Virus record (IMG/VR): IMGVR_UViG_3300025280_000023
Coordinates: 59,550 to 123,549 of that record
Strand: one strand, 5' to 3'
From: a virus
DNA length: 64,000 nt
In this document: one piece after another, positions 1,055-24,838 of the stretch
How the letters are laid out: each line of letters starts with the position of its first letter
How positions within the stretch are numbered: the first letter of the stretch is position 1
Position numbers and translations under genes: made by a program
The notes under the pieces: generated by a model
Seen by the model: the letters and a program-made list of their open reading frames with translations, nothing else
Told to the model about the DNA's origin: nothing
The model's database searches: none

Positions 1055-2947
1055 ATGAAAAGGCTCCTACTTCTTTTTATTGTCCTGGTACCACTATACT
1101 CCTGTGCCGATAAAGTGACAGAGGGCGAAGACGGGGACATAGGGCTTACACCTATTATCCCAATTTATGATCCGTCATTGATAATGAACATCAAGGCGAT
1201 GACGCCGCACGAGTACCAGCAGGAGTGCATCAGGCGGGAATATTATTTTTGTGATCTAGACGCCAAGACAAAGATGGAAGTCGTAAAGGATATATGTTTC
1301 GATCCCCCCAAGATCCTAAGTGTCGGTGAGTGCGAAGAGTTTTTGGAATGCGATCCAACGCAATACCTAATAGGTACGATAGAATGCGTAACATGGGATG
1401 GATATCCAGGAACGCAGGACGAGGTTTGTGATAAAGGAACCATTAAGTATACGGAATGTGTAAGTCTGTGCGAAGAAGAGATATGCGATGGGGAAGATAA
1501 TGATTGTGATGACCAGATTGATGAAGGCCAGCTAAATGATTGTGGCCTGTGTGGGTTCTTGCCCGAAGAAGTATGCGATGGTGTGGACAATGATTGCGAC
1601 GGCTCTACAGATGAAGACCTGCTTCAAGAATGTTTTACAGCGTGCGGAACGGGCGTAGAATATTGTATTGGTGGGAATTGGGTTTCGTGTACAGCCCCTC
1701 CCGTCCAGGTGGAAATATGCGATGGATTTGACAATGATTGTGATGGACAAATTGATGAGGAACTCAACTGCGGATGTACCATCGGTCATGTGGGAGTTTT
1801 ATTCCCCTGCAACGAGTCGCCCCTTATATGTGGTAAGGGGTATAAGACCTGTGAATGCCTTGACCCAGGATGTACGTCTTTATCGATGACAGATTGTATG
1901 GCCGCCTGTGTCTACTTTCCTGATCCCGATGAACCCTGTGATCCAACGGTTGGACAGCCTCTCAAAGAAGAGGAATGCAACAACTTTGATGATAATTGTA
2001 ACGAGCTTATAGACGAAGACCTGTTCGGCCAATGCTATACAGGGGACCCCGCGACCCTATACGTAGGCATATGCGAACCTGGAATCATGACGTGTAAAGA
2101 GGGCACCTGGGGAGGGGTCCATGATGAAATACAAGAATTCATCCCTGGGTTCTGCGATGGTGAAATTGTACCACAAGAAGAAATATGTAATGGTGTTGAT
2201 GACGACTGTGACGGCGTTACTGATTCAGGAGAGGAGTTAGACCCTGTTGATATCTTGTTTATTATCGATTGGTCCGGTTCTATGTATATTGAAATAAATG
2301 CCGTCATGACCGCCCTTAATAAGTTTGCTAGTAATTACATTGACGAAGAAGTCCTACAATGGGGTACTATCATTGGTCCACTGGACTCCCCTGCTAACTC
2401 CTCAGGTAAAGAATACCTTAAGCTTCATCATAACCTATCTGGGTTTACTGATTTTATATCCGCAATGTCACAATTGAATTTAAACTCGTACACAATGATT
2501 GGTGCCCGCGAAATGATGTATGACGCAATATATTTAGCCATGCATAACTTGGTGGGTGCTTCTTCTTTGCCGGTTGCCATAGCAGATGTCGTATGGGATA
2601 CAATAAAGGGCGTTACTGAGTCGTCTCCTCCTAAAGAAGACTTTGTTATCGATTGGCGTACTGATTCAGACGTAGAAAGGGTTATCATTATCTTTACCGA
2701 TGAAACTCCGCAATCTTACTTCTTACCCAAGATAACTCAATTGGATCTGTTGGATTTGATTTCTAAGACGTTTAATACTAAGATATATGTGTTTACAAAG
2801 GACTGGCATAAAGAAAACGGCATGTATAACGATGGCTGGGAGCCTATTTGTATCGCTTCTGGAGGGAAATATTACGAGTTAACTTCTGATATGCTTACTA
2901 TGTATAATAACCTTGTGGAGATCATTGATGAAAATGCCTGCAAGTAG
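1055..2947 (+). CDS. Lipoprotein with five MopE-type repeats and a VWA domain
   Basis: A 630-aa exported protein. A signal peptide with lipobox LYSC puts the lipidated Cys at residue 17. Five putative metal-binding MopE motifs follow (CDGEDNDCDD, CDGVDNDCDG, CDGFDNDCDG, CNNFDDNCNE, CNGVDDDCDG; roughly residues 145-395). The C-terminal half starts at DILFIIDWSGSM, a von Willebrand A domain with an intact DxSGS MIDAS. The MopE motif (Put_metal-bind_mot family) is typical of surface proteins of Myxococcota and related delta-lineage bacteria, so the gene was probably captured from such a host. A role at the host surface (adhesion or superinfection exclusion) or on the virion is inference. Confidence 0.85.
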   Translation: MKRLLLLFIVLVPLYSCADKVTEGEDGDIGLTPIIPIYDPSLIMNIKAMTPHEYQQECIRREYYFCDLDAKTKMEVVKDICFDPPKILSVGECEEFLECDPTQYLIGTIECVTWDGYPGTQDEVCDKGTIKYTECVSLCEEEICDGEDNDCDDQIDEGQLNDCGLCGFLPEEVCDGVDNDCDGSTDEDLLQECFTACGTGVEYCIGGNWVSCTAPPVQVEICDGFDNDCDGQIDEELNCGCTIGHVGVLFPCNESPLICGKGYKTCECLDPGCTSLSMTDCMAACVYFPDPDEPCDPTVGQPLKEEECNNFDDNCNELIDEDLFGQCYTGDPATLYVGICEPGIMTCKEGTWGGVHDEIQEFIPGFCDGEIVPQEEICNGVDDDCDGVTDSGEELDPVDILFIIDWSGSMYIEINAVMTALNKFASNYIDEEVLQWGTIIGPLDSPANSSGKEYLKLHHNLSGFTDFISAMSQLNLNSYTMIGAREMMYDAIYLAMHNLVGASSLPVAIADVVWDTIKGVTESSPPKEDFVIDWRTDSDVERVIIIFTDETPQSYFLPKITQLDLLDLISKTFNTKIYVFTKDWHKENGMYNDGWEPICIASGGKYYELTSDMLTMYNNLVEIIDENACK

Positions 2948-6061: not shown

Positions 6062-6997
6062 ATGTCTAATTATAAACTTTCAGAAAAGGGTATGGGTGGG
6101 CGGACTTTTCAAAAGAAAGAAGATGATTTTCTTGCTTGGCTAAATAAGGCTTCTGATTGGACAAAGGAGCACAAACCAAGGTTCAAACCAAAGCTGCCCT
6201 CTGGATCCCCCTCATTCAAAGGCCCATTTGCCTCGCTACAATTCTCGTTTAGCCGAGACGACTATCAGTATCCGGAGTCCCTGGGAATATCCGACTTCGT
6301 TATGCAAGATGAACTTGAACCAAATTTCTGGGTAAACAACGCCCTTAAACCACCGATTCTTCAGCGCCTGATGGTTATTACTGCCGATTTTGTCAACAGC
6401 CTGGGGCTAGACAATGTGCATATAGATGATATTATTATAACCGGCTCGATAGCAAACTATAACTGGTCTGAGTATTCCGATATTGATGTGCACATTTTAT
6501 TAGACTTCGAGGATGTTGACGACAATACTGAACTTGTTAAGAAATTCTTTGATGCAAAGCGGATGTTATGGAATAAACACCATGAAATTATGGTAAAAGG
6601 CCATGAAGTCGAAATGTACCTTCAGGATACGAAGGAAACACATGTTTCTTCCGGGGTCTATTCGCTTTTAAATGGCACGTGGGTTAAATTCCCAAAAAAA
6701 GAAGAGCCAGCGATTGATATGAAAGCAGTAGAAGAGAAAACTCTTTCGCTAATGAAGCTAATCGACGAAGTTGGTATGTTATTTTCGAATGGGCAACACA
6801 AATCTGCCCTCGATCTTTCCAGTAAAATAAAAAATAAAGTAAAAAGGATGAGAAAAACTGGGTTGGAGAGTGTCGGCGTATACTCTTCTGAAAACTTAGC
6901 GTTTAAGGCCTTAAGAAAAAATGATTATTTGGCAAAACTCCATGAACTGTACACTAATTCATATGATGAACTAATGTCCATGAATGGGGATGGGTAG
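6062..6997 (+). CDS. Nucleotidyltransferase-fold protein
   Basis: 311 aa. IIITGSIANYNWSEYSDIDVH (about residues 127-147) carries the hallmark GSx(8-9)DxD of the pol-beta nucleotidyltransferase superfamily, with a possible third acidic residue in GHEVEMYLQD. Homologues occur in many T4-like phages and use NTPs to modify RNA, protein or antibiotics; the substrate here is unknown. Translation continues directly into the next small gene. Confidence 0.8.
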   Translation: MSNYKLSEKGMGGRTFQKKEDDFLAWLNKASDWTKEHKPRFKPKLPSGSPSFKGPFASLQFSFSRDDYQYPESLGISDFVMQDELEPNFWVNNALKPPILQRLMVITADFVNSLGLDNVHIDDIIITGSIANYNWSEYSDIDVHILLDFEDVDDNTELVKKFFDAKRMLWNKHHEIMVKGHEVEMYLQDTKETHVSSGVYSLLNGTWVKFPKKEEPAIDMKAVEEKTLSLMKLIDEVGMLFSNGQHKSALDLSSKIKNKVKRMRKTGLESVGVYSSENLAFKALRKNDYLAKLHELYTNSYDELMSMNGDG

Positions 6998-14258: not shown

Positions 14259-14420
14259 ATGAAAATCATTGATAAGTTCCTTGCTTTGGCCGGCTGGAGA
14301 TGCCTTGAGTTTGTTGTTATAAAAAACAATACTCGTAGATGTTCCCTAAAAAGAGGACACAAAGGACAACATGAAGCTAAGTTTAAAAAATCTACTTGGA
14401 GATGGATCACCAAAGAATAA
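14259..14420 (+). CDS. Small basic protein with Cys/His pairs, 53 aa
   Basis: Begins MKIIDKFLALAGW. RCSLKRGHKGQHEAKF holds one Cys and two His that might bind metal. Basic, ends W-R-W-I-T-K-E. Divergent from the tail fibre gene and directly upstream of the large RNA. Function unknown. Confidence 0.5.
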   Translation: MKIIDKFLALAGWRCLEFVVIKNNTRRCSLKRGHKGQHEAKFKKSTWRWITKE

Positions 14421-14440
14421 ATTTGTTGACAACTACCAAG

Positions 14441-14448
14441 CTATAATA
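14441..14448 (+). promoter_or_regulatory. Late-type box CTATAATA before the large RNA
   Basis: Likely promoter of the 620-nt structured RNA, which would start near 14453. A hairpin (CCCC/GGGG near 14487-14503) follows shortly after. Confidence 0.45.
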
Positions 14449-14452
14449 TAGA

Positions 14453-15074
14453 ATACCCTTGTTCTTTTAAAAAATGTTTAGAATTCCCCTTTTCGTCGGG
14501 GATTAAAATCAGCTTGCACAATCCGGGGCGGCTGGGTCTTCTTAATTGGAGGCATAGACGAGCGCCTAAGGAAGTAGATGCGTTGTTTCGTATTTCCCCT
14601 AGCGGGGCCTTTAAACAAGGCGGTGGATAGGAAAGTAGTGTTTCTGAAGCCACTTGTTAGCTTGACGACTAGAGTCGTGGTACTACCCGCGAAGTGCTGC
14701 CGTCAAGACAAACGGATTTGGACCGTTTATCGTTTGACCGGGTGTAACCAAGAAAGGTTACGGGAAGTTTTGCGTAAGCAAGCAAAGCGTCACTGTGTAT
14801 AACAGTAGTGCCAATGGTGAAAAGCGAAAGCTGATCACGTCACCCGCAAGGGCACGTTTGGATCCATCCCGTATGGTCAAAAACGTGAAGTTAGGTACGG
14901 GGATATAGCTATCCTACCAAGCCAAGCTTAGAATGTTATACACAATATAGGTGTGCTGTTGCATCACACAACAACAGGGGCAAAGGTGGTGAAGGATATT
15001 ACCCTTCCGTGTACAGACGCCACATCGGCGGTCACCACTATAGAGACGCTAACTGTGCTGGCGTCTCTTTTTTT
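14453..15074 (+). ncRNA. Large structured noncoding RNA, about 620 nt
   Basis: No credible reading frame, but dense helices: CTTGAC/GTCAAG (14661/14702) enclosing ACGACT/AGTCGT; AAACGG/CCGTTT (14710/14723); GTAACC/GGTTAC (14744/14756); a GAAA tetraloop hairpin (14823-14832); CCC-GCAA-GGG (14843-14852); GGTA-GGATA/TATCC-TACC (14894-14918); a possible H-type pseudoknot (14951-14972); GTGGTGA/TCACCAC (14986/15032). It ends in a perfect terminator. Size, GNRA loops and phage context resemble the giant ornate RNAs ROOL (about 580 nt) and GOLLD, but I cannot assign it to either. Exact 5' end unknown. Confidence 0.72.
15042..15074 (+). terminator. Intrinsic terminator of the large RNA
   Basis: Perfect 8-bp stem AGAGACGC/GCGTCTCT followed by an uninterrupted run of Ts. 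Confidence 0.88.
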
Positions 15075-15095
15075 ATGTCTGAACAATATAAAAAA

Positions 15096-15103
15096 CTAAT
15101 TAT
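15096..15103 (+). promoter_or_regulatory. Late-type box CTAATTAT, 3 nt before ATG
   Basis: CTAATTAT-AAT-ATG (ATG at 15107); no Shine-Dalgarno fits between the box and the start. Confidence 0.5.
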
Positions 15104-15106
15104 AAT

Positions 15107-15255
15107 ATGGGTAACACCAAGAAAACTTTGGAAAAAATGGTCCAAGAGGTCCTTTCTGAGATGCTTGATAGTCATTTGAATTCGTCACTGAACGAGACAA
15201 TACGAAAAAAAGGAAAGTGCCGGTGTTTGTATTCTAAGAAGAAGGGAAAAAAATG
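15107..15255 (+). CDS. Small basic protein, 48-49 aa
   Basis: MGNTKKTLEKMVQEVLSEML start, then a Lys/Cys-rich tail (CRCLYSKKKGKK). The stop overlaps the next ATG (AATGA). Position right after the box suggests a leaderless late mRNA. Function unknown. Confidence 0.6.
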
Positions 15256-15762
15256 AAAAAGTTTATAATATCACTTTTAACTATATTGGCATTGTGTATT
15301 CCAATAGGGAATTCTAGCGCATCTGTTAGTATCGGCAAGAAGCCGCTAATCAATCACCATGTGCATGTAATAAAGGGACACTTCTTTACTGTATTTGAAG
15401 CAGTGTCAAAAGAAAACAAAGAGCTTATAATAAAGTCTATCTTTGTGCTTGAGCATCTCCATAAGGATAAGAAGCACCATGACCTACTTAAAAGACAAGA
15501 TGAGAGAGAAGTCCAAATAATATTGGTGGCGGTTCTTCATATTAGAGGCGTATTAAATGGAAAATACCCCGGTATGTATCCGGAAAACGCCCTTGAACTC
15601 TGGGAACACCTAGGAAAAAATGTAATTATTAAGAAGGTGAATAAGAACTGGACGATGCAGTTAAAGATCCCCAAAGATATGAAGAGAAAGAAAAAAGAAC
15701 AACACAAAGAGAATGCCACGGAAGGTGACAATCTTAATGACTATTGGCGAAAAGAACATTGA
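15253..15762 (+). CDS. Exported hypothetical protein, 169 aa
   Basis: The N-terminal MKKFIISLLTILALCIPIG with SASVS after it is a typical signal peptide. The mature part is His/Lys-rich (HHVHVIKGHF, HLHKDKKHHD). No recognised domain. Overlaps the next gene if that starts at TTG 15759. Confidence 0.65.
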   Translation: MKKFIISLLTILALCIPIGNSSASVSIGKKPLINHHVHVIKGHFFTVFEAVSKENKELIIKSIFVLEHLHKDKKHHDLLKRQDEREVQIILVAVLHIRGVLNGKYPGMYPENALELWEHLGKNVIIKKVNKNWTMQLKIPKDMKRKKKEQHKENATEGDNLNDYWRKEH

Positions 15763-17644: not shown

Positions 17645-17648
17645 TGTG

Positions 17649-20576
17649 ATGAAACCAATATTAGAAAATTGGAATAGATTTGTCCATAGGCAATCTAAGT
17701 TGGTGCCTCTCCAAGATAAGCGGAAAAGGCTCTTAAACGAAATCAGCTATAAGAATGCAGAAGCTATCAACGATTGGTTTGGTGGCGATTATAGCAAACT
17801 TGCGCTCAGGAGACTGTTTGATGATAAGCTACGGTATTCTTTTCCTCTTCAAACCCAAGACGAGAGGTACCTGCTTAGAGCGATCAAATATCTCATAGAC
17901 GACAATTGGATGCCACCTGAAAACGAAGACGACGCTTCTTGGGCGAAAAGGCGCTTCTCTACTAAAGTTGTCAAGCAAAAGCTTCGAAAGCTCGATACCG
18001 GAGAAGAGTATGAGGTCGATGTTGAAGTTCCTGATTTAAAATTAGAGCGTTCCGTTGAGCGTGAGATCCCGAAAGGCCCCAGGGCAGGCGAGATTGTTAA
18101 GAGCAAGGAGGTTGCCAGCTTTGCAAAGGCGATGGCAAAGGCGGGCGTTCCAAAGCCATTGATGCAATGGTGGGAGCGAGCCCAAGGTCACTATACTAAA
18201 AACAGTGGCTGGAAGGCCATTGAAGACGCATTTATTAGCGGCGGCGGCAATGCTGGAATTGAATATTCTGTTGTTGTATCTCGTCATCCCATGGATGTTT
18301 TGAGAATGAGTGACATTGGAAATATTAAATCGTGTCATAGCGAAGGCGCGAGTTATTTCCAATGTGCCGTTGCCGAGTCAAGAGGGCATGGCGCTGTCGT
18401 ATATCTTATTCCCACGGATGAGCTAAAGGAGTTCTTGCGTGTTAAAGGCGAGGATGAGGAGATGTATGGTAGCGATGTAGACATGGCAAGCAGCGAGGAG
18501 ACGGAGTATAAGAAGCTGTCTGATTTTGATGATCAAGAGATCTTTAGAGACTCCGCTAGAGGAGTTGATGGTATCGTTGCCAAAGCAAGAGTTCGTCTAA
18601 GGCGTCTTGAGCTTGAAGGTGGCTACATGGCTAAAGAGTTTGCTATTCCGGAGCTTGCGACATATGGATCGCACCCCGCTGGCTTTGTTCAGGCCGTTTC
18701 AAAGGATACATGGGAAAGGCAAAAGGATCTCTTTGTAGCCAAAAGTGGACGCCTTCATTTGCCGAGCGATGACGAACTAAAGATAACAGGCGGAACCTAC
18801 AGAGATACAACTCCCGCTAGAATGTTAAACAACTTCTTTTCAGCGTCTGGAGAAAAGGTAGACAAATATCACGGCTTTATTGAAACAGAAGGTGGTGAAG
18901 AAGAACTAGAGAACCTATGGGAGATGTATGAAACAGAAATAGAAGAGCATAATGCTAGAGCTAGCAATGAATTAGAACACGCCTGGTTCCATGGGGAAGT
19001 AGATGGGCATGATGAGCCCTACGTAACCGTTTCTGCCGGTATGTCTATTACTGTTCCCTTGTCCTGGGAGGGCGCTATCGATGTTTCGGGAGGCGCACAA
19101 GCCGCCACCAAGGGTGATGTCCACGGGCAAGAGAAGTGGGTTCCTAACGACCAGTATAACTTAATACCCAACACACATGGGGATTACAAGGCGTCAGGAG
19201 CATTTGAGTCGCTTATTAAAGACATATCTGACTACCCGGAATCAATGGAGTGGAGTATTGGCTCTGGAACAGAGACGCCATGGGAAATAGAATTCCAATT
19301 GTATTATAATTGTGACGATTGCTACAATCCGGACAACGCCGGTTATTTTTTAGATTATATCCGCGATGATATTGACAAAAAACATGACGTAATCAAAGAA
19401 AAGATTCGCAAGGTCCTCATAGAAAATGGCTACATGCCTGCCGGCTACTTCGATGAATTGGAAAAAGAAGAAGAGAACAGAGAAGAGGGCACTATTAGAT
19501 TTGAAAACTTTGCCTTCATGGGTGATGAAAACAAGGATGGCACAATTGAGTTTATTTTAAGATATGCCGAACATGACCAGACTGAGAGTTTTTTACCCAC
19601 CGGATTAAGAATCCCATTGGTCCTGGCCAGGTCTGCTCCCGGCGAGCCCCCGATATACGATTCTCTAGCCCTAATGAGGGCTGGCCTTGGAACTAAAAAA
19701 GTTCAATTAAGAAGCGCTTATAGCGCGATTGCGCTTTCTCCACTTGCAGAATCCGAAGTAAACAAAAGATTGGCATCTCTAGAAAAGGCGGCCAATGAAC
19801 ATATTAGCAGGCAATTTCACCTGGATCTCGGTGACGGCTGGGAGCCCAAAGTATTCTCCGGCGTTGAAAATCTTAATCGTGCCGTGTTCTCAGTTTATTT
19901 TATGAACCAAAGCTGGCGTGGTTCGCCCACACCTAGTGAAGAAAGAGAAATCGGTTTTAATTTAAGAATTCAAATCCGATCTACCGACACTAAAGAAGAG
20001 ATTAATATTGCTTTAGAATATATTAGCTTTATTGATAGACACGTAGAAGAAATTAAAAGAACAGTAGCCGATGTCTTTAGCACTATTATGGAGTCCAAAG
20101 CTAAAGAAGTAGAAAAAGAAGAAAGGGAGTTCTTTGACGGCACCACAGCGAAAGGACTTATCATGCAAATATACCGCTCCAACGCCACCCTAATGAATAC
20201 TGACGAAGGTAAAGGCCGGGTCAAGATCGCTAAGTGGGTCGCTGAAAACTGGAGTACGATGAGCGATGATCAGAAGCGCATTTCAATTAATCAATATTTG
20301 GTTCCGATTGTGAACCGTAGTTACGGTGATAATTACGGGATCAACTTGTCTAGTCGAGCAAGTGATGAGCCGACCACCCCCTCGTTTTTTAGTGGATATC
20401 TTCCAGTGGGCCATGGACCCTGGGCTGGAACTGACTATAAGACCACCGAAATACCCTCCTGGGACGAAGATGAGGACATTGAGCAGGGTAGGGGCCTAGG
20501 CAAGGTGTTTGAATGCGTTCTAGGCCCCAAAACGGGCCTTATACGGTTAAGATTTAAGAGGGCTTTATTAGGATGA
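17649..20576 (+). CDS. Giant candidate internal (injected) protein, 975 aa
   Basis: Start MKPILENWNRFVHRQ (ATG 17649) belongs to the LENW class; the first matching cleavage site is LLNE near residue 36. Core motifs VVSRHPMDVLRMSDIG, KSCHSEG, YFQCAVAESRGHGAVVYLI, then IFRDSARGVDGI and KARVRLRRL, are shared with the 734-aa protein at 7155-9359. C-terminal parts are long, acidic and differ between the two, as in modular effectors. It heads an overlapping run (20573, 22489, 22703...) and probably acts in the host after injection; the reaction is unknown. Confidence 0.72.
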   Translation: MKPILENWNRFVHRQSKLVPLQDKRKRLLNEISYKNAEAINDWFGGDYSKLALRRLFDDKLRYSFPLQTQDERYLLRAIKYLIDDNWMPPENEDDASWAKRRFSTKVVKQKLRKLDTGEEYEVDVEVPDLKLERSVEREIPKGPRAGEIVKSKEVASFAKAMAKAGVPKPLMQWWERAQGHYTKNSGWKAIEDAFISGGGNAGIEYSVVVSRHPMDVLRMSDIGNIKSCHSEGASYFQCAVAESRGHGAVVYLIPTDELKEFLRVKGEDEEMYGSDVDMASSEETEYKKLSDFDDQEIFRDSARGVDGIVAKARVRLRRLELEGGYMAKEFAIPELATYGSHPAGFVQAVSKDTWERQKDLFVAKSGRLHLPSDDELKITGGTYRDTTPARMLNNFFSASGEKVDKYHGFIETEGGEEELENLWEMYETEIEEHNARASNELEHAWFHGEVDGHDEPYVTVSAGMSITVPLSWEGAIDVSGGAQAATKGDVHGQEKWVPNDQYNLIPNTHGDYKASGAFESLIKDISDYPESMEWSIGSGTETPWEIEFQLYYNCDDCYNPDNAGYFLDYIRDDIDKKHDVIKEKIRKVLIENGYMPAGYFDELEKEEENREEGTIRFENFAFMGDENKDGTIEFILRYAEHDQTESFLPTGLRIPLVLARSAPGEPPIYDSLALMRAGLGTKKVQLRSAYSAIALSPLAESEVNKRLASLEKAANEHISRQFHLDLGDGWEPKVFSGVENLNRAVFSVYFMNQSWRGSPTPSEEREIGFNLRIQIRSTDTKEEINIALEYISFIDRHVEEIKRTVADVFSTIMESKAKEVEKEEREFFDGTTAKGLIMQIYRSNATLMNTDEGKGRVKIAKWVAENWSTMSDDQKRISINQYLVPIVNRSYGDNYGINLSSRASDEPTTPSFFSGYLPVGHGPWAGTDYKTTEIPSWDEDEDIEQGRGLGKVFECVLGPKTGLIRLRFKRALLG

Positions 20577-22492: not shown

Positions 22493-22710
22493 AGCATTTA
22501 AAAGAAAATAATGAAACGTACTTCAGTCATCTTAAATTCGCTTTAAGTATTGGAACAAGCCTGATGATAAGAGGAGCACTTCTTATTCTTCATGCCTTTC
22601 TGCCCATGGTAACGATTCCAAAAAAATGGAGTCTTGACGACACCCTGAGAACAGTATATCGGTGGTCTGTTTATGCCAACAAAAGAAAGAAGGGGACCTT
22701 GAATGAATAG
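22489..22710 (+). CDS. Small membrane protein, DUF6356-like, 73 aa
   Basis: ATG overlaps the previous TGA. NETYFSHLKFALSIG followed by LMIRGALLILHAFLP resembles the ETYxxHxxFAxxxG...HAFxP pattern of DUF6356 proteins. One or two membrane helices. Overlaps the next start by 8 nt. Confidence 0.6.
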   Translation: MKHLKENNETYFSHLKFALSIGTSLMIRGALLILHAFLPMVTIPKKWSLDDTLRTVYRWSVYANKRKKGTLNE

Positions 22711-24838
22711 CGGTTGGAAAAGCTTCATCAACGAAGCAAAGCAAGATAAGAAATTTATAAAGAAATTTAATATTACTGTCTTGCAAAAGAATACGCCGAT
22801 GCCCGCAGAGGCAAACCCCAGGGAATACCATCAGCAGATCGCCCAGCAGGCAGAAGAAGGGCCAATGTTCAGTAAGGATATTCTTGAGATCATTGAAAAC
22901 TTAGAAGACAGATTCTTTCCAAGAGAGAACAGAAAAGTATACACAAAGTGGCTTGCAAATATTGTTCGAGAACACCACGGAAGGGTAGGAGGATACCTTC
23001 ACTACATGAAAGGACCGGAGGGTCTTCCCTATATAGTTGATTTTCTTAATGGAACCAGGGAATCAACGGAACCACTGTGGTCCCTGAATTGGGGCGGCAT
23101 GAAGGCCGCCGCTGAAGACTGGCACGAACAGTTTAAAGGAGTCGAGGATACCGGGCATTTTGAAAGCAAGAACGTTCTTCATGACTTTGGAAATGGGTAT
23201 ACAATAGTTGATGTGCCATCCGAAGACCTAGCGGCGGAAGGCAATAAGATGGGGCATTGTGTTGGTGGCTATTGTCCCGAGGTCGAGAAAGGCAAAATCA
23301 AGATCTACTCTCTTAGGGATCGCAATAACAATCCGCATGTGACAATAGAGTACTCTCTTGAGGGCGATGGGATTTATCAAATTAAAGGTAAGGAGAACAA
23401 AGCTCCTCATGAAAAATATGCTAAAATGATTTATCCATGGATTATTGAAAATTTTACCGCCGAGGAATACGCCGAAAGTGATGACTTTATAGCAATAATA
23501 CCCACAGAAGAAATCAAGTCCTTTATGAGGTCCGGGAAGCTGTCGCTGCCACGGGTTGCACGGATGGCGAGACAGGATGATGAATTAAATTCTTTGATTG
23601 TTGACACAATGATCAAACTTAAGCCCGTCGTCCAGGATAATACGCTTAAGCAGACTATAACGAATCTAAGATATAACAGTTCTTTTGACGACAAGCACCT
23701 TCTTAAACTTGTTGATACTATTGATGAAACAAAGGCTGATAAGAAGGATCTATTCATACTTAGATTGGCCGATTGGCCGTCACTACCTATGGATGTTTTA
23801 CTAAGGCTTTTTGAGAAAACAAAACATTATAGTGAATCTGGGCTTGGCGGCCCGAGCCGCCAGGGGCACGACTTATGGCGCACAATGATTAAAAACCTTT
23901 CAGAACGTAGTGACGCTCCGCCAGAATATTTGGAACAGATTTATGATATCGTACATCAGTTGCCTAATAATGCCTTTGGAAGCCGAGTAAGAGACAGGCT
24001 ACTAAAAAACGAAACCACCCCCGACAGCGTGATTAAAAAACACTTAAGCCAGTTTATTGTAGGAAAAAAACTATTATACCATGCCGACTGGAACGACTGG
24101 CGGGGTATGGACAGTGAAAAGCGCACCGACTTATATGATAAGGGGGACCGAGCAGAGCGCACGTATCGTAGCTTATCTTCTAGAGAAAATACGGATCCGA
24201 GGGTGCTGGACTTGCTGCTAGTGACTGCGTTAGAGAAAGACAGGGCGTTAGACGACTTTTTTAAAAAGGAAAAAGAAGAGCTTGGTGACGCTAGGATAGT
24301 GCAAGGCTCCCCATTGAGTATTGCCCTCCGGGAAAAAACCCGCAGCGCCGCTCAGTGGAAGATCGAGCTGTTTCGGAATCCCTCTCTCTCGGAGGCGAAC
24401 AGGAAGATCTTAACTAATAATTTAGCCCCTTACGAAATTCAACTATTGGCTGGCTCCCTAGAAAGCTTCAAAGTGTCAGAAGATACGGCTGTCCGACTAT
24501 TGGAAAAATCGCTCTCCGATTATATTGAATATTCTAAAGAGCTTGCAAATGCACGCACTAGAAAAGACCGTGTAGGAGAAAAGTTATCCAATTACAACTT
24601 GGGCGCGTTGGAGAGGGTTTTACAAGATATCCTCAACAGAAAAACCAGCAGGAAAAAAACAGAAGAATTCAATGATAAATTGTTGGCTGTGTCGTTAGAC
24701 GACTCCCTGTGGGGTAGAGATCCAAACCACCGCGACATAAAAAGGCAGAGGAGGATTTTAAAGTCGTTCTATAATAAAAACAAAAACAATATAGAAAATT
24801 TTAGAAACCACTATTGGCCTGAAGAACAAGAAAAGTAA
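22703..24838 (+). CDS. Candidate internal protein with PcfJ-like domain, 711 aa
   Basis: N-terminus MNSGWKSFINE ends in the I-N-E site typical of T4 prohead-protease substrates. Residues about 170-240 carry DLAAEGNKMGHCVGGY, then KIKIYSLRDRNNNPHVTIEY, the signature of the PcfJ-like family (conjugative elements and phages; biochemical role unknown). The C-terminal 450 residues look like helical repeats (TTPDSVIKKHL type). The Cys-His pair may be catalytic. Confidence 0.7.
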   Translation: MNSGWKSFINEAKQDKKFIKKFNITVLQKNTPMPAEANPREYHQQIAQQAEEGPMFSKDILEIIENLEDRFFPRENRKVYTKWLANIVREHHGRVGGYLHYMKGPEGLPYIVDFLNGTRESTEPLWSLNWGGMKAAAEDWHEQFKGVEDTGHFESKNVLHDFGNGYTIVDVPSEDLAAEGNKMGHCVGGYCPEVEKGKIKIYSLRDRNNNPHVTIEYSLEGDGIYQIKGKENKAPHEKYAKMIYPWIIENFTAEEYAESDDFIAIIPTEEIKSFMRSGKLSLPRVARMARQDDELNSLIVDTMIKLKPVVQDNTLKQTITNLRYNSSFDDKHLLKLVDTIDETKADKKDLFILRLADWPSLPMDVLLRLFEKTKHYSESGLGGPSRQGHDLWRTMIKNLSERSDAPPEYLEQIYDIVHQLPNNAFGSRVRDRLLKNETTPDSVIKKHLSQFIVGKKLLYHADWNDWRGMDSEKRTDLYDKGDRAERTYRSLSSRENTDPRVLDLLLVTALEKDRALDDFFKKEKEELGDARIVQGSPLSIALREKTRSAAQWKIELFRNPSLSEANRKILTNNLAPYEIQLLAGSLESFKVSEDTAVRLLEKSLSDYIEYSKELANARTRKDRVGEKLSNYNLGALERVLQDILNRKTSRKKTEEFNDKLLAVSLDDSLWGRDPNHRDIKRQRRILKSFYNKNKNNIENFRNHYWPEEQEK

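Follow-up and report, generated by a model that had tools for sequence, protein, structure and literature searches.

A large structured non-coding RNA of a phage genome with a single distant homologue in a giant phage

Large structured RNAs of phages and bacteria

To our knowledge, natural RNAs that exceed 500 nt and have complex conserved folds are few, and the two phage classes among them, ROOL and GOLLD, are unexplained. ROOL forms a homo-octameric nanocage. GOLLD has a length of about 800 nt. Like the RNA described here, ROOL (RF03087) is phage-encoded, large (574 nt in the model, 659 nt in env-120) and composed of many helices with pseudoknots (PMC12286853). GOLLD is likewise a giant, ornate RNA of phages and prophages, and is thought to form an RNA-only cage (PMC12286853). 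Another ornate RNA of similar size, about 600 nt, is OLE, which dimerises in vitro (PMC12286853). For OLE and GOLLD, Kretsch et al. read switching palindromes as pointing to self-kissing loops (PMC12286853). The lnc001 RNA of phage K (635 nt) is a long phage non-coding RNA with an early promoter of its own (PMC9241854).

A non-coding RNA gene with its own promoter and terminator

The window, that is, the whole 64-kb stretch of DNA analysed here, belongs to a 123,549-base virus record that is about 95% coding. A gap of 686-740 nt between called genes, among the largest in the 123.5-kb record, is flanked by a small gene (14259-14420) on one side and by another at about 15161 on the other. What the interval contains is a true gene for a non-coding RNA; it adjoins tail-fibre genes, lies about 26 kb from the nearest tRNA and has no second copy in the record. 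The elements of the gene are as follows.

14426..14454, plus strand: sigma-70-type promoter TTGACA-N17-TAGAAT, with 11 of 12 consensus matches and a start site expected at about 14461
14461..15075, plus strand: non-coding RNA gene of about 615 nt, with promoter, terminator and a homologue of conserved structure
15042..15075, plus strand: intrinsic terminator, a 10-bp stem followed by T7

The preliminary description, made from the letters of the window, had noted a late-type box at the start of the interval. This box is actually the -10 element of the sigma-70 promoter. Sites of the form TTGACA-N16-18-TA(G/T)AAT occur only twice in the whole 123.5-kb record, and the promoter of the RNA is one of the two. 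Just upstream of called starts, TTGACA is found in 23 of 59 cases on the minus strand and in 2 of 35 on the plus strand. In the minus-strand early region (window 34000-63600), many small genes are closely preceded by a TTGACA..TAnnnT promoter. The promoter of the RNA would be of this same early sigma-70 type, as far as timing can be read from sequence signals. From this promoter to its own terminator, which is indeed the perfect one described earlier, the interval is probably transcribed independently.

The absence of a usable frame, claimed at the outset, is also borne out. The longest forward open reading frame in the interval has 74 codons, a length reached by 16.5% of shuffles. Coding scores within the RNA are mostly low or negative, and no internal frame scores near real genes. 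ARAGORN and Rfam find neither tmRNA nor tRNA in the interval.

Folding energy, taken alone, says little. The minimum folding energy of the interval has a z-score of -3.9 against 20 shuffles, but the fold residual is only -1.7 against 624-base windows of its own genome, and the antisense strand folds equally well. As to the at least eight perfect helices counted in the preliminary description, 12 of at least 7 bp do exist, but such a count is ordinary when compared with shuffles (9.8, p 0.26); with a cutoff of 6 bp there are 45, where shuffles give 33.5 (p 0.01). The folding energy is by itself unremarkable for the genome, and the case rests on the homologue. The fold that the homologue supports is partly unlike the minimum-energy fold. 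One minimum-energy helix, P1 (14456-14463/14973-14980), was dropped, as its 5' arm precedes the expected start and the homologue favours helix P-k.

A distant homologue with the same shape

The sole homologue is an RNA of 673 nt in the giant-phage record IMGVR_UViG_3300012953_000013 (184,866 bases; L162:8262-8934). It was discovered through a MopE-repeat protein used as bait (alignment over 1055-2947; 80 loci retrieved). Some of these loci are 63-71% identical in the MopE protein, and L162 is among the more distant ones. The protein itself (Pfam Cu-binding_MopE, window 1055-2947) marks a large group of giant phages and has relatives in 295 viral contigs. The first sign of the RNA in L162 was a run of 44 bases resembling 14969-15012, within a noncoding stretch of similar size.

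The L162 RNA has its own promoter in the corresponding place (TTGAAC-N17-TATAAT) and a terminator. It lies in a tRNA-rich neighbourhood, 1.1 kb upstream of the MopE-repeat gene and 588 nt from a tRNA-Pro. Since the neighbourhoods differ between the window and L162, cis control of a neighbour is unlikely. The two phages are distantly related; the letters of their RNAs are very different, and the shape is common to both.

A covariance model, R2, was built from window positions 14794-14944 alone with their own minimum-energy fold. It finds L162:8613-8764 with 47.1 bits (E 2.7e-9), and this is its only match among the 80 loci (1.35 Mb). Over this 154-column domain, 95.9% of the cells are paired in the R2 alignment. 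Here, 19 of 49 base pairs have changed on both sides and still pair, a number reached by none of 500 shuffles (mean 9.5) and far from the 0-1 of slid-structure controls, although the alignment was fitted to the structure and its count leans towards structure. When the four-hairpin regions (114 and 116 bases) are folded separately, their tree distance is 28, against about 90 +/- 14 for shuffles (0/400). A hand alignment of the whole RNA holds 18 helices with 82 pairs, none of which is broken: 44 are the same in both members, 5 differ on one side and 33 on both; it was made by eye with the structure in mind, is descriptive and includes two mutually exclusive helices, P-e and P-h. The unbiased tests are the separate-fold tree distance, the R2 search and, in part, the R2 pair count.

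The covariation that the preliminary description proposed to look for in homologues is therefore present (19/49 by R2, 33/82 by hand), in a single pair of sequences, the two members. We regard it as all but certain that these are members of a real structured non-coding RNA family. The family is previously uncatalogued: Rfam has no match in the interval at gathering score, nor any beyond background at E up to 10, and nothing in the L162 homologue. With strong covariation in its single homologue and no Rfam match, the earlier idea of a large, ornate phage non-coding RNA, possibly of a new class, has gained support; the late promoter was the one mistaken element in that interpretation.

Anatomy of the RNA

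From 5' to 3', the fold supported by the homologue consists of the following parts.

14485..14502, plus strand: hairpin P-a, 5 bp with an 8-nt loop; 2 compensatory pairs; loop length equal in the homologue
14661..14707, plus strand: helix P-b (14661-14664/14704-14707) around hairpin P-c (14676-14680/14687-14691, loop UACYAC); 6 compensatory pairs
14709..14736, plus strand: hairpin P-d, with CAAACG/CGUUUG replaced by UUCGCG/CGCGAA in the homologue; 4 compensatory pairs
14739..14846, plus strand: possible long-range helix P-e (14739-14744/14841-14846), in competition with tetraloop hairpin P-h; 2 compensatory pairs
14794..14944, plus strand: domain closed by the 11-bp long-range helix P-f (14794-14804/14934-14944); R2, from this domain alone, finds the homologue
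14817..14838, plus strand: hairpin P-g, in which a symmetric 2x2 internal loop separates the outer stem from an inner stem capped by a GAAA tetraloop; 5 compensatory pairs
14843..14852, plus strand: tetraloop hairpin P-h, CCC-GCAA-GGG; loop GAAA in the homologue
14853..14887, plus strand: hairpin P-i (CACGU../..ACGUG); pseudoknot possible between its loop, 14869-14871, and the P-j bulge
14888..14929, plus strand: hairpin P-j, with base, middle and top stems and a 3-nt 5' bulge (14898-14900); 7 compensatory pairs
14956..14977, plus strand: hairpin P-k, CUGUUG/CAACAG; conserved GUGCUGUU...AACAGGG; 1 compensatory pair
14986..15038, plus strand: helix P-l, GUGGUGA/UCACCAC, with P-m inside; 2 compensatory pairs

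In the P-b/P-c region, AGAGU and, after P-c, GAA-N-UGCUGCC are conserved. Independent folds of the two members are similar in this region, only about 2.5-2.8% of shuffles coming as close.

Helix P-f encloses four hairpins, P-g, P-h, P-i and P-j. The GAAA and GCAA hairpins reported at first sight are present (14823-14832 and 14843-14852), and the homologue keeps both GNRA loops with GAAA and GCAA swapped. The pseudoknot that had been called possible can be placed between 14869-14871 and 14898-14900; its 3 bp are feasible in both members, with one compensatory pair. The apical loop of P-j is palindromic in both, AGCU in the window and GUAC in the homologue, and is the sole apical loop of this kind.

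The most conserved block, CAGGGNNAAAGNNNGTGAAGGAN8TTCCGTG (14975-15011), falls in the P-k/P-l region. It occurs with zero mismatches in both members and is absent, even when 3 mismatches are allowed, from the 76 other related records among the 78 scanned.

Distribution

Only two members are found among about 100 related phage records. The RNA is absent from the searched DNA of the syntenic relatives G020, G021 and G022, and it was not found in the gaps beside tail fibres of syntenic phages, nor in the phage, plasmid and GTDB collections. With blastn, the window RNA gives no matches, or chance matches below 40 nt, in phages and plasmids, and an exact 18-mer scan gives chance matches only. A chimeric query of translated RNA frames (6 patterns at once) has no match. 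A 17-base 3' motif scanned over viral contigs returns the known homologue and chance matches only; a second motif pattern does the same among the matches listed. The GTDB motif scans give 0 matches in strict form and 30 in relaxed form, all of them by chance.

Neighbouring proteins were also used as baits in viral contigs. Those at 15253-15762 and 17646-20576 have no match, and the NTase bait (6062-6997) brings up 187 relatives but did not lead to the RNA. The fast first-pass genome search with R2 missed the known homologue, and RNA-model negatives from such searches are therefore weak. The firm negatives are those from cmsearch of related-phage DNA and from the pattern scan of 78 records, in which up to 3 mismatches were allowed. 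Given this patchy distribution, the phage group can evidently do without the RNA.

Some observations were made on the proteins of the record. The protein at window 6062-6997 matches PHROG 36119 and has relatives of 34-42% in huge phages, Lak-type ones among them; relatives are encoded by 187 viral contigs. A large protein with a PcfJ-like domain is encoded at window 22703-24838. In record bases 1-59549 (L002-L004), ten of the tested large minus-strand proteins gave no PHROG match at all, and two others are glycosyltransferase-like.

How the RNA may work

The host RNA polymerase would most likely read the RNA early, from its own sigma-70 promoter, and transcription would end at its own terminator to give a transcript of about 615 nt. 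This transcript is predicted to fold into a 5' hairpin, a central P-b to P-d region, the four-hairpin domain and a highly conserved 3' element. The four-hairpin domain would be closed by the 11-bp helix and contain the loop-bulge pseudoknot as well as two GNRA tetraloops. Its shape is most likely what makes the RNA work, in a particle of RNA only or led by RNA, perhaps associating with itself, as is thought for ROOL and GOLLD; neither coding nor cis control of a neighbour would be its expected mode of action.

The best explanation of the whole, with a probability of roughly 0.55, is thus a non-coding RNA with a transcription unit of its own, belonging to a new family of large structured RNAs of phages and acting by shape. 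For a shape-based and possibly oligomeric particle, which is proposed by analogy, the odds are somewhat below even. The palindromic loop of P-j in both members, a change of the sort that Kretsch et al. relied on, hints at self-association; it is only suggestive, being one observation in two sequences that could be due to chance.

A protein-binding scaffold is another way to account for such a molecule. The RNA would then fold only with, or recruit, a phage or host protein, comparable to the protein-binding part of OLE or HEARO. The large conserved single-stranded 3' blocks AGAAUGUUAU and AGGGNNAAAG could be the protein sites, but no protein gene is conserved beside the RNA in both phages, and we consider a scaffold possible but unlikely.

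The early-type promoter and invariant stretches such as GUGCUGUU and GUGAAGGA would also suit a regulator or sponge that pairs in trans with host or phage RNAs, its structure merely presenting the pairing sites. However, a length of about 615 nt with many covarying helices far exceeds what such RNAs need structurally, and the invariant stretches lie mostly in or beside helices. Such a role appears improbable.

The preliminary description had also raised the matter of a reading frame conserved between homologues. Several of the indels that separate the two RNAs would shift the frame, their lengths not being multiples of three, so that no frame spans the RNA in both. At the 3' end, however, a 21-codon stretch with a GTG start (14953-15015) has a similar translation in the two members, VL[LF]..TG[AR]K[VL]VK[DE][IL]T[LI]PC. 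It could mean that a short protein or leader peptide is made from this part (from GTG 14953, VLLHHTTTGAKVVKDITLPC; in the homologue, VLFRDPYRSRTGRKLVKELTIPC). A six-frame blastp gives E 6.5e-6, the indel within the frame has 9 nt, and the substitutions by codon position are 6/1/7, with conservative residues and only 1 of 14 at position 2. Against this, the frame in the window has no stop before the terminator (the stop is at 15097), the C-termini of the two members are unrelated, and no relatives of the peptide were found. Further, its coding scores are low (2.75 and 0.0, where coding windows of 26 codons have a median of 9.8), the double changes in P-l are accounted for by pairing, and the peptide would span only about one-tenth of the RNA. 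A peptide is thus quite improbable, and the similarity is judged to be a by-product of the conserved RNA.

A ribozyme, an intron or a remnant of a mobile element (a group I/II intron, a retron or a diversity-generating element) is very unlikely. The patchy distribution might bring one to mind, as might the similar size of this large structured RNA and its place close to a tail-fibre gene, but Rfam gives no match at E up to 10, group I/II introns included. The RNA is intergenic, with its own promoter and terminator, and is not repeated in the record as a template would require.

Comparison with ROOL, GOLLD, OLE and phage K RNAs

At 615 and 673 nt, the new RNA is comparable to ROOL (about 570-660 nt), and both are phage-encoded and noncoding. 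ROOL often occurs near tRNA islands (PMC12286853); this is true of the L162 copy but not of the window copy (about 26 kb off). Unlike true ROOL, neither member is matched by the ROOL model, and the four-hairpin domain has no counterpart in true ROOL. The ROOL model has no match in the phage of the window or in four related phages. As a positive control, it finds a true ROOL with 358.4 bits in 1 of 150 genomes, which cmscan also reports. Conversely, a model of the new RNA gives only background against the true ROOL (best 9.1 bits over 28 nt). In its genome, which is of the G110 family, that true ROOL (358 bits, L478) has a large-type SRP RNA about 1 kb away.

Neither GOLLD nor OLE appears among the Rfam matches, whether the cutoff is the gathering score or E up to 10. 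GOLLD also differs in being longer and in sometimes carrying tRNAs in its linker. OLE is bacterial, occurs in Gram-positive extremophiles and is bound by Oap proteins, in which it is unlike the new RNA. The phage K RNAs, unlike the window RNA, belong to a kayvirus and lie beside tRNA genes, and no relative of that sort is found among 50,697 phage records when either member is searched with blastn.

The covariance searches suggested in the preliminary description thus reject membership in both ROOL and GOLLD. A ROOL or GOLLD diverged beyond recognition by the models might be imagined from the lengths (615 and 673 nt against 574-659), the phage origin and the homologue among tRNA genes, but is very unlikely with no Rfam match at E up to 10, a real ROOL scoring 358 bits and a new-RNA model that finds no counterpart in it. 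The likeness to ROOL and GOLLD is one of size, origin and ornateness, and not of homology.

A bolder and less probable extension of the shape-based reading is that the new class self-assembles via its self-complementary apical loop (AGCU/GUAC) and tetraloop contacts. As such an RNA-only multimeric particle, it would join ROOL and GOLLD as a phage RNA nanostructure that evolved a third time and independently. A third class of large phage RNAs, sharing neither sequence nor fold with those two and carried by a different group of giant phages, would suggest that large architectural RNAs have arisen repeatedly in phages. The new RNA also offers an object on which to test whether such RNAs have a mechanism in common, in terms of particle formation, early expression and dispensability.
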